Below, one piece after another: positions 38,465 to 41,463 of a DNA stretch of 49,287 nt. The translations under genes were made by a program, and so were the position numbers. The DNA is from Rhodospirillales bacterium (GTDB lineage: Bacteria; Pseudomonadota; Alphaproteobacteria; BOG-932; Roseiterribacteraceae): assembly GCA_028291365.1 (NCBI GenBank), contig JAQGIE010000181.1, forward strand, positions 1 through 49,287, given 5' to 3'. Numbering within the stretch: position 1 is the first letter of the stretch; each line of letters begins with the position of its first letter. The notes below the pieces were generated by a model. The model was not told where the DNA came from. It was given only the letters and a program-made list of their open reading frames with translations, and did not search any database.

Positions 38465-38919
38465 GCGACACGATGATCGCCGACTACGACCCGGCGATCG
38501 CACCCTCCGAGATCGCCGCAATCTGGCATTCAAGCTGGGCGGCCAATAATCCCGAGCTGGCGGAGGCGGCGCCGCTGGCGCCGTTGGCAGAACGCGCCGC
38601 GCGCGAACTCGAAACCGGCCGCTGGCAGGTGCGCGTGGCGCGGCTCGGCGGCCGGCTGGTCGGTTTCGCGGCGACGGTGCCGTCGGATTCGCTGCTGGAC
38701 CAGCTTTTCGTGCTGCCCGATGCGCAGCGGCATGGTGTCGGAACCGCGCTGCTCAACGACGCGAAGCTTCGTTCTCCGCGTGGGCTGAAGCTGCGTACGC
38801 AGGCGTCCAATCGTGACGGGCTGCGTTTCTATGCGCGACACGGCTTCCTCGAGTGCGGGCGCGAGATGCACGCGACGTTGAACGTCGAAATGATCTGGCT
38901 GTGCTGGCTGTCGCCGTGA
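38461..38919 (+). CDS. GNAT family N-acetyltransferase
   Basis: The product is 152 aa from a GTG that overlaps the gmk stop. The acetyl-CoA motif A is visible as LDQLFVLPDAQRHGVGTALL, with the Gln/Arg-x-x-Gly-x-Gly-type loop QRHGVGTA. Motif B is RTQASNRDGLRFYARHGF, where the final Tyr is the usual general acid. Substrate unknown. Its own stop overlaps the GTG of the next gene. This makes a three-gene chain with gmk and a sialidase-fold protein, all in fixed translational register. Confidence 0.85.
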   Translation: MSDTMIADYDPAIAPSEIAAIWHSSWAANNPELAEAAPLAPLAERAARELETGRWQVRVARLGGRLVGFAATVPSDSLLDQLFVLPDAQRHGVGTALLNDAKLRSPRGLKLRTQASNRDGLRFYARHGFLECGREMHATLNVEMIWLCWLSP

Positions 38920-40040
38920 CCGGAGAGCGCCGCGTCCTCTATCGCAAGCGCGGTGAATACGCGTCCTTTCCCAGCCTGTGCGCGCGTGGCGGCGGCGGCC
39001 TTTGGCTGGCGTTCCGGCGCGCGCCCGATCATCGCGTGCTGCGGCCCGACGGGGCCGGCCGCGACGACGTCGATCATCTCGACGCGCGCTCGCATATCGC
39101 GCTGCTGGCGCTCGACGCGCTGGGCGCGCCGCAAGGCGAGCCCGCGATCCTGCCGCCGCACGTCGCTGTGGCCGACCAGGATCCGAACCTGCTGGCGCTG
39201 TCCGACGGAAGCCTGATGCTGAGCGGGTTCGCCTATTACCCGCTGCCGGCCTCGCAGGCCGCGCCGCTGGTGGCAGCGGGGGCGCTGCCGACGCGGCTGC
39301 GCGACTGCGACATCGCGTATTTCCTCTGGGGCGCCTACGCGCGGCGCAGCCACGACGGCGTGGCCTGGAGCGCGCATCAATTCTTCGGCCACGACGCCGA
39401 TTTCCCCGACATCATTCCGGGCGCTCGGCCCTGGCATGGCGGTGCGCTGCGCGGCCGCGCGCTCGAACTCGCCGATGGCACGTTGCTGCAGGCGGTCTAT
39501 GGCGGGCGCGGGCCCAACGGTCGCTATGCGAGCGAGCTGTGGGCCTCGGGCGATCGCGGCGCGACCTGGCGCAAACGCGCCACCATCGCGTTCGACGCGC
39601 AGAAGCACGAGGCGGGCTTTTGCGAAAGCGCGCTGACGCAGCTCGCCGACGGTTCGCTGCTCGCCTTCCATCGCACGACGGGCCTCGGCGGCCGCATCGC
39701 CACCTCGCGTTCGCGCGACCTCGGACTGCACTGGGACGACGCACTCGTCCACGACGTCGTCGGCCATCCGGCCGATGCCTGCGTGCTTGCCGACGGGCGG
39801 CTGCTGGTCGTCTACGGCTATCGCGCCGAGCCCTACGGCGTGCGTGCGCGCCTGTGGGAGCCGCGGCGCCAAGCGTTTGGCGACGCCGCCGAACTGGTGC
39901 TCGTCGACGACGCACCGTCGCCCGACGTCGGCTATCCCTGGGTCGTGCCGCTCGACGATGGCGGTGCGCTGGTCGCGTTCTACTGCTCGGACGCGGACGG
40001 CGTGCGCGGGATCGAGGCGGTGCGGCTGGCCAGCTTGTAG
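38916..40040 (+). CDS. sialidase/BNR-like beta-propeller protein
   Basis: The product is 374 aa from a GTG that overlaps the GNAT stop (GTGA). Asp-box motifs of the sialidase fold occur at about residues 145 (RRSHDGVAWS), 210 (ASGDRGATW) and 266 (SRDLGLHW), spaced as blades of a six-bladed propeller. The N-terminal Arg-Ile-Pro motif of true sialidases is not evident. No signal peptide, so probably cytoplasmic, which is unusual for a sialidase. Function unknown; a sugar or nucleotide-sugar-processing role would fit the acetyltransferase neighbour but is speculative. The last 61 bases overlap the 3' end of the opposite-strand sigma factor gene. Confidence 0.75.
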   Translation: MTGERRVLYRKRGEYASFPSLCARGGGGLWLAFRRAPDHRVLRPDGAGRDDVDHLDARSHIALLALDALGAPQGEPAILPPHVAVADQDPNLLALSDGSLMLSGFAYYPLPASQAAPLVAAGALPTRLRDCDIAYFLWGAYARRSHDGVAWSAHQFFGHDADFPDIIPGARPWHGGALRGRALELADGTLLQAVYGGRGPNGRYASELWASGDRGATWRKRATIAFDAQKHEAGFCESALTQLADGSLLAFHRTTGLGGRIATSRSRDLGLHWDDALVHDVVGHPADACVLADGRLLVVYGYRAEPYGVRARLWEPRRQAFGDAAELVLVDDAPSPDVGYPWVVPLDDGGALVAFYCSDADGVRGIEAVRLASL

Positions 40041-40891
40041 GGGTTCATCTGGCGCCAGATGCGGGTGATGCGCCCGTTCTCGATGCCCAGCGTGTCGACG
40101 GCAAAGATGCTGTCGCCGAGGAAATGCACCAGGCCCGGCTCGCCGTTCACCAGCATGACCTGGAAGGTGATGGATTTGTTCTTGCGATTGATCCCCTCGA
40201 ACAGGCGGGTCACGCGTTCCGCCCCCTCGATCGGATTGCGCGCGGCGCCGACATGGCCGCCGCCGTCATTGAGCAGCACCACGTCGGGCGCCAGCAGGGC
40301 TGCGACGCCCTGCGCGTCGCGCGCAATCAGCGCCTGCGCATAGCGCGCGATCAGCTCGCGCTGCGTTTCGGGATCGACGTCGAAACGGCGCTTCTCGCTG
40401 CGGACACGCTCGCGCGCCCGATGGACCAGCTGGCGCGAGCCCGCTTCGCTAAGCCCCAGCGTTTCGGCGATTTCGGCATGCGGCAGGTCGAAGCTTTCAT
40501 GCAGCAGGAAGGCGGCGCGTTCGGTCGGGCCGAGCCGCTCCAGCACCAGCAGCAGCGCGGTCGAAACGTCGTCGGCGCGGTCGTGGGCATAGTCGGGGGC
40601 GTCGGTATCGGGCGCTTCCACCAGCGGCTCGGGCAGCCACGGTCCGACATAGTCGGTGCGGGCAACGCTGGCGGCGCGCAGCCGGTCCAGCGCCAGCCGC
40701 GTCGTCACGGTGCTGAGCCAGGCCGCATCGACCTGGATCTTGTCGCGGTCGGCGGTAGCCCAGCGCAGGAAGGCGTCCTGCACCACGTCTTCGGCTTCGG
40801 CGACCGAGCCGAGCAGCCGGTAGGCAAGGCGTTGCAGGCGGGGGCGCAGCGCTTCGAAACGCTGCGCGACGGCGAGATCGGAGTCATCCAT
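39980..40891 (-). CDS. ECF41-type RNA polymerase sigma factor (SigJ-like) with SnoaL-like C-terminus
   Basis: The product is 303 aa. Sigma2 includes YRLLGSVAEAEDVVQDAFLRW (in parts YRLLGSVAEAED and VVQDAFLRW) and sigma4 is LPHAEIAETLGLSEAGSRQL. The C-terminal domain of about 120 residues is SnoaL/NTF2-like. ECF41 hallmarks are WLPEP at 85-89, DGGGH at 209-213 (usually DGGGK) and NPYKL at 283-287 (usually NPDKL). There is no anti-sigma gene; in ECF41 the C-terminal domain does the regulating. The ATG at 40891 is chosen because the frame further upstream would run through the promoter. A 16-residue tail after NPYKL is encoded in the overlap with the sialidase-fold gene. Confidence 0.92.
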   Translation of the reverse strand: MDDSDLAVAQRFEALRPRLQRLAYRLLGSVAEAEDVVQDAFLRWATADRDKIQVDAAWLSTVTTRLALDRLRAASVARTDYVGPWLPEPLVEAPDTDAPDYAHDRADDVSTALLLVLERLGPTERAAFLLHESFDLPHAEIAETLGLSEAGSRQLVHRARERVRSEKRRFDVDPETQRELIARYAQALIARDAQGVAALLAPDVVLLNDGGGHVGAARNPIEGAERVTRLFEGINRKNKSITFQVMLVNGEPGLVHFLGDSIFAVDTLGIENGRITRIWRQMNPYKLASRTASIPRTPSASEQ

Positions 40892-40899
40892 GACGGGTA

Positions 40900-40926
40900 G
40901 ACGATCGGCCAATTGATTTCGTGACA
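40900..40926 (-). promoter_or_regulatory. ECF41-type promoter reading into the sigma factor gene
   Basis: On the minus strand TGTCACG (40926-40920), a 16-base spacer and CGTC (40903-40900) match the known ECF41 promoter motif. The -10 ends nine bases before the ATG, so the transcript would be leaderless or nearly so, and there is no Shine-Dalgarno. It implies autoregulation. Confidence 0.65.
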
Positions 40927-40934
40927 AGTGTCAC
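40921..40934. promoter_or_regulatory. palindrome shared by the two ECF41-type promoters
   Basis: GTGACA-AG-TGTCAC is a perfect inverted repeat with a two-base centre. Each half supplies the -35 element of one of the two divergent promoters. Confidence 0.7.
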
Positions 40935-40955
40935 GCCGCGGCGGGCTGGTTCGTC
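40929..40955 (+). promoter_or_regulatory. ECF41-type promoter reading into the AhpD-like gene
   Basis: TGTCACG (40929-40935), a 16-base spacer and CGTC (40952-40955). The start would fall near 40961, leaving about 29 bases of leader with AAGGAGA six bases before the ATG at 40990. The spacing is identical to the opposite promoter. Confidence 0.75.
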
Positions 40956-40989
40956 AACAGGGCAGAAGCTTGAACCAAGGAGATCCAAG

Positions 40990-41463
40990 ATGTCTGCCCG
41001 TCTCGACTACAACAAAGTCGCCCCCGACCTGATGCGCGCGGTCTTCACCGCTGCCATGCCCCTGACCAGGAGCACGCTGGGCGAACAGCTGCTCGAGTTC
41101 GTCAAGCTGCGCGCATCGCAGATCAATGGCTGCGCGCTTTGCCTCGATTTGCACGCCCGCACCTTGCTCGATCTCGGCGTCGACTTCGCCAAGATCAATT
41201 TAGTCGCGGCGTGGCGCGAAGCGCCGGACTTCGACGCGCGCGAGCGTGCGGCGCTGGCCTGGACCGAAGCACTGACCGCGCTCGGCAACCATCGCGACAA
41301 CGACGAAGCGTATAAAGAGATCGAAGCGGTGTTCAGCGAACGCGAGCGGGTCGAGCTGACCCACGCGATCGGGATCATCAACCTGTACAACCGCTACAAC
41401 GTCGCTTTCCGCGCGCCGCCGATGGGCATGAGCATGTCGCAGCTGATGAAGATGGCGAGTTAG
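40990..41463 (+). CDS. carboxymuconolactone decarboxylase / AhpD-like protein
   Basis: The product is 157 aa. The redox CxxC is INGCALCLDLH (Cys48 and Cys51) with His55, the AhpD-type alkylhydroperoxidase site. The core then reads LAWTEALTALGNHRDNDEAY and LTHAIGIINLYNRYN. Proteins of this family are the standard partners and targets of ECF41 sigma factors. A strong Shine-Dalgarno (AAGGAGA) fixes the start. Its promoter is divergent from and mirrors that of the sigma factor gene. It probably serves a peroxide or electrophile stress role, with unknown substrate. Confidence 0.92.
   Translation: MSARLDYNKVAPDLMRAVFTAAMPLTRSTLGEQLLEFVKLRASQINGCALCLDLHARTLLDLGVDFAKINLVAAWREAPDFDARERAALAWTEALTALGNHRDNDEAYKEIEAVFSERERVELTHAIGIINLYNRYNVAFRAPPMGMSMSQLMKMAS

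Follow-up and report, generated by a model that had tools for sequence, protein, structure and literature searches.

In the stretch of DNA analysed here (the window, 49,287 nucleotides from a Rhodospirillales bacterium), two ECF41-type promoters stand back to back between the gene for an ECF41 sigma factor and a carboxymuconolactone decarboxylase (CMD)/AhpD-like gene, with -35 boxes 2 bp apart. We consider it highly likely that both promoters are genuine and that the sigma factor drives from them the CMD gene and its own gene, the latter probably by a leaderless mRNA, with probable competition between the polymerases involved. As a regulatory arrangement it amounts to positive autoregulation of the ordinary kind, compactly laid out.

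The sigma factor gene (39980..40891, minus strand, ATG at 40891) encodes a 303-aa protein of the ECF41/SigJ type, in which sigma2, a WLPEP linker and sigma4 are followed by a SnoaL_2 C-terminal domain. Pfam recognizes Sigma70_r2, Sigma70_r4_2 and SnoaL_2 (aa 182-277); that is, sigma2 and sigma4 only, with the C-terminal extension of the SnoaL type and of about 100 aa that ECF41 factors carry. The WLPEP motif (aa 85) occupies the linker between sigma2 and sigma4, where the passages of Wecke et al. 2012 concerned with these proteins (PMC3426412) place it as an ECF41 feature, and DGGG and NPYK follow at aa 209 and 283. The protein scores 326.4 bits with the NCBIfam SigJ model NF007214, for which the cut-off is 271, and phmmer aligns residues 10-288 with Mycobacterium tuberculosis SigJ (PDB 5xe7, E=5e-55), a member of the same family. 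The ECF41 identity proposed in a preliminary description of this DNA is thus borne out by the NF007214 score above cut-off, the SnoaL_2 domain and the WLPEP, DGGG and NPxK motifs. At its other end the sigma gene converges with a gene for a BNR-repeat protein (38853-40040, plus strand), the two 3' ends overlapping by about 60 bp.

The presumed target, the CMD/AhpD-like gene (40990..41463, plus strand, 157 aa), specifies a CxxC motif (CALC), and its product matches Pfam CMD PF02627 (E=4.5e-16) and the AhpD core domain TIGR00778. ECF41 factors are recognized in part by a gene for a carboxymuconolactone decarboxylase, an oxidoreductase or an epimerase next to them, and the neighbour here is a CMD gene with CxxC; the locus is a standard one for ECF41 in the sense defined in the relevant parts of Wecke et al. 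2012 (PMC3426412). Upstream of the ATG at 40990, the leader of the CMD gene is of the normal kind and includes the Shine-Dalgarno sequence AAGGAG at 40977-40982 (plus strand).

Positions 40900-40955 read GACG-N17-GTGACA-AG-TGTCAC-N17-CGTC (in letters, GACGATCGGCCAATTGATTTC GTGACA AG TGTCAC GCCGCGGCGGGCTGGTTCGTC), which places an ECF41-type promoter on each strand. The promoter of the sigma gene, on the minus strand, runs from 40926 to 40900 as TGTCACG AAATCAATTGGCCGAT CGTC, with the -35 TGTCAC at 40921..40926 and the -10 CGTC at 40900..40903; that of the CMD gene, on the plus strand, runs from 40929 to 40955 as TGTCACG CCGCGGCGGGCTGGTT CGTC, with the -35 TGTCAC at 40929..40934 and the -10 CGTC at 40952..40955. 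Both sites are exact and have the same 16 bases between TGTCACG and CGTC, the arms CGTGACA and TGTCACG flank an AG at 40927-40928, and the -10 elements are separate and point outward, none being shared. In the passages of Wecke et al. that define it, the published consensus is TGTCACA-N16(±1)-CGTC and the COE genes are its targets (PMC3426412); the window's promoter before the target has the form TGTCACG-N16-CGTC, and the locus falls into the divergent ECF41 class (<ECF< >COE>) that carries the motif on both strands. The identically spaced motifs on the two strands, and the -35 halves as arms of GTGACA-AG-TGTCAC, had been described correctly beforehand; the 30 or so bases said to lie between the sigma and AhpD-like genes were an error, the intergenic region being 98 bp (40892-40989).

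A single TGTCAC-N(14-20)-CGTC is not rare by chance, with a mean of 0.9 per shuffled window, but 100 dinucleotide shuffles of the window contained no facing pair at any gap from 0 to 30; the pair observed falls precisely in the interval between the sigma and CMD genes. For scoring, a matrix was built without this genus, from 105 clusters comprising 230 distinct sites in other genera, and run on the window only. The CMD-side site came out as the best in the window (24.9 bits, 78th percentile of the comparison mirror sites) and the sigma-side site as the second (20.1 bits, 13th percentile, 0.45 bits of it from the spacer), followed by a next-best site of 11.4 bits, a ranking that is partly built in, since the search pattern dictates the core bases and leaves only the spacer part informative. 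The two scores differ because the spacers differ. Base 7 is G in both sites, as in about 22% of the 230 comparison sites, against A in 63% (weighted). Six more TGTCAC-N17-CGTC matches occur in the genome; because they lie mostly within open frames, no extra targets, and hence no wider regulon, are claimed.

The pair is also present in a second genome of the same genus, that of 'Rhodospirillales bacterium TMPK1', described as Roseiterribacter gracilis strain TMPK1 (PMC11164329), whose sigma factor is 83-84% and whose CMD protein is 78% identical to those of the window. In this one comparison, between two genomes of the genus, alignment over the 56 bp leaves both -35s, both -10s and the AG centre unchanged and confines the differences to the spacers. 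The longest unchanged block, CAATTGATTTCGTGACAAGTGTCACGCC (40910..40937), comprises both -35s, the AG centre and the A+T-rich stretch CAATTGATTTC just upstream of the CMD -35, a possible UP-like element, and in each genome 8 nt separate the sigma ATG from the -10. That the elements have stayed the same where much of the spacer sequence has diverged makes it very probable that both promoters are real, and conservation of the pair in the second genome makes a chance origin untenable. Three further genomes of the family yielded no homologue at E 1e-50 or better, and among 385 alphaproteobacterial genomes the exact mirror pattern was found only in the window genome and TMPK1.

The preliminary description had suggested that other ECF41 loci be searched for the same palindrome and spacing, and mirror pairs proved to be common: a scan for gaps of 0-30, covering about 85,000 species by one genome each, returned at least 120 loci, and at 97 of these a sigma homologue begins within 300 nt and reads outward. 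Among the matches listed, the partner genes include CMD, NmrA/NAD-binding, DoxX-like and FAD oxidoreductase genes, most gaps measure 9-30 bp, a gap of 2 occurs only in the window's genus, and the still closer gaps of 0 and 1 occur in Kutzneria and Kribbella. When gaps of 31-60 were admitted, two pairs turned up among 50 genomes, each with a gap of 35.

Among the matches listed, which come from unrelated genera, the distance between facing ECF41 -35 boxes shows two clusters, at 9-12 and 20-24 bp. For the 78 genus-gap pairs in these matches, R at 10.5 bp was 0.40, a value reached in none of 20,000 uniform draws (p 0.001 with a free period). The idea of helical phasing was dropped, the 11 gaps of a later sample (6, 24, 11, 12, 30, 16, 11, 27, 28, 24 and 15) being off phase (p 0.69, small sample). 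Mirror ECF41-like pairs were also seen in Mycolicibacter (L043:7372-7434, L112:5034-5096 and L133:678-740) and Mycolicibacterium (L109:2914-2979), where no sigma homologue was found within the fetched DNA; at L043 and L109 a DoxX-like gene lies opposite one that encodes an unknown protein or an enoyl-CoA hydratase. In Nonomuraea (L054:1206-1287 and L119:851-923) such a pair adjoins a cytochrome b (qcrB-like) gene, again with no sigma homologue in the fetched DNA.

The sigma gene of the window has its ATG 8 nt after the -10 and is without a Shine-Dalgarno sequence, and it is because the ATG (40891) follows so closely that a leaderless transcript, as predicted in the preliminary description, is the natural reading. 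In the parts of Wecke et al. that deal with leaders, the mapped lengths are 22 and 23 nt, and Table 5 gives 31 and 32 for the same two genes (PMC3426412); one reading of these figures is that transcription may start about 9 nt after the -10, and the window's sigma transcript would therefore begin on the A of the ATG. Among the matches listed in the scan, an ATG or GTG in the sigma frame lies 7-10 nt after the sigma-side -10 at 28 of 97 loci, and over the same 97 loci such codons at this distance number 31 in frame against 15 out of frame. With the 8-nt distance kept in TMPK1 and these 28 loci alike, the prediction gains support, and the sigma mRNA is probably leaderless.

A divergent layout with the motif before both genes is not new, having been described in 2012: in the passages and Table 4 that concern it, Wecke et al. 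report 55 divergent ECF41-target loci, many with the motif before both genes, which precedes the ECF gene at 36 and the COE gene at 41 of the 55 (PMC3426412). The window shares with these loci the SnoaL-like C-terminal fusion, a CMD target with CxxC, the TGTCAC(A)-N16-CGTC motif and the divergent genes, and differs in its 2-bp -35 gap, the G at base 7 and the sigma start 8 nt after the -10; promoter-promoter gaps and leaderless starts are undiscussed in the passages concerned. In the literature found, including those passages, mapping is confined to COE promoters, and a self-directed ECF41 promoter has been predicted only (PMC3426412). Another alphaproteobacterial ECF41 factor, Sinorhizobium meliloti RpoE9 (with SMb20029), likewise uses a TGTCACA-N16-CGTC promoter and has a CMD gene as its sole detected target, but there the CMD and sigma genes are in tandem behind one common promoter and no mirror site is reported (PMC6180224). 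The bidirectional promoters of Escherichia coli (Warman et al. 2026, PMC12825309) resemble the window in divergent transcription from compact, pseudo-symmetrical DNA and in the polymerase competition to be expected. Their symmetry, however, resides in a shared -10 with divergent starts about 10-23 bp apart. In the window it is the -35s that face each other, with predicted starts about 70 bp apart; the two -10s are separate and point outward, which places the pair outside the class that Warman and Grainger define by starts beside or within a shared -10 (PMC12825309).

Taken together, the motifs, genes, conservation and recurrence suggest a simple circuit, in which recognition by the sigma factor, the starts and the competition are what we infer. 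The active sigma factor, presumably controlled by its SnoaL_2 domain, would direct holoenzyme to the plus-strand site and transcribe the CMD/AhpD gene, and the same holoenzyme would transcribe the sigma gene from the minus-strand site, a positive autoregulation in which sigma synthesis would rise with sigma activity. The sigma mRNA would begin on its ATG or no more than a few bases away, and the CMD mRNA would carry a normal ribosome site, CMD being made from the stronger-looking promoter. Both connections, activation of the adjacent CMD gene and firing of the sigma gene from a mirror site, had been anticipated and are supported as the likely wiring. Promoter footprints being what they are, it is doubtful that two polymerases can be accommodated together where -35s lie 2 bp apart. 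Because of this 2-bp distance the two polymerases probably compete, and mutual exclusion at the pair is plausible; output would then be capped and shared, not switched. At opposed promoters in E. coli, competition matters only at high activity (PMC12825309).

The preliminary description had gone further and proposed a self-limiting switch. On such a reading, polymerase exclusion at the near-touching -35s would be the selected function and would set or flip the balance between sigma factor and enzyme. The 2-bp gap and AG centre kept in window and TMPK1 would fit such a function, as would the gaps of 0-1 in Kutzneria and Kribbella among the matches listed and the mutual exclusion of opposed polymerases at E. 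coli bidirectional promoters (PMC12825309). We nevertheless judge the switch improbable: most mirror pairs among the matches listed have gaps of at least 9 bp, so that near contact is no requirement of the family; the E. coli promoters are built differently, around shared -10 elements, and show competition only at high activity; and the small gap may be mere compaction, a possible sigma start lying 7-10 nt after the -10 in all seven of the gap 0-2 loci among the matches listed. One non-cooperative activator working at both sites should, moreover, give concave self-activation that saturates at a single stable state; a switch needs cooperativity, nothing found shows it, and the proposal is therefore unsupported.

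Doubt could also attach to the sigma-side site itself, which might be weak or exist only as a consequence of the symmetry, leaving only the CMD-side site at work and the sigma gene to another promoter or basal transcription. Its lower matrix score (20.1 vs 24.9 bits) and the lower count of motifs before ECF than before COE genes in Wecke Table 4 (PMC3426412) agree with this, but we think it unlikely, as TMPK1 keeps the sigma-side -10 and -35 and the same spacing to the ATG, next to spacer bases that differ, and a search of the intergenic region for a sigma-70-like promoter found none. The GTGACA-AG-TGTCAC dyad could even be the site of a dimeric regulator, since an inverted repeat with a 2-base centre is the usual look of a repressor site, its likeness to ECF41 -35 boxes arising by chance. 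This is hardly credible when CGTC follows both arms at the exact ECF41 distance, beside an ECF41 gene and a classic target, and when the gap between the arms varies from 0 to 30 elsewhere among the matches listed, a misfit for one dimer site.

Two working promoters that serve target and sigma gene thus remain the preferred reading, and the loci with near-touching -35s invite a more tentative one. They may represent a minimal back-to-back ECF41 promoter in which transcription of the target throttles sigma autoregulation, arrived at in at least three independent lineages (Roseiterribacter relatives, Kutzneria and Kribbella), a possibility that we find worth stating while holding it to be rather doubtful; its core, if true, would be two identical holoenzymes competing for overlapping DNA. 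The 56-bp element is small enough for exclusion between back-to-back polymerases with near-touching -35 boxes to be measured. For the ECF41 family more broadly, the survey finds mirror pairs to be common across several phyla, with the start codon of the sigma gene often 8-9 nt beyond the -10. The locus itself is a clean case in which positive autoregulation can be tested, in a family whose self-promoters are, in the literature found, predictions only.
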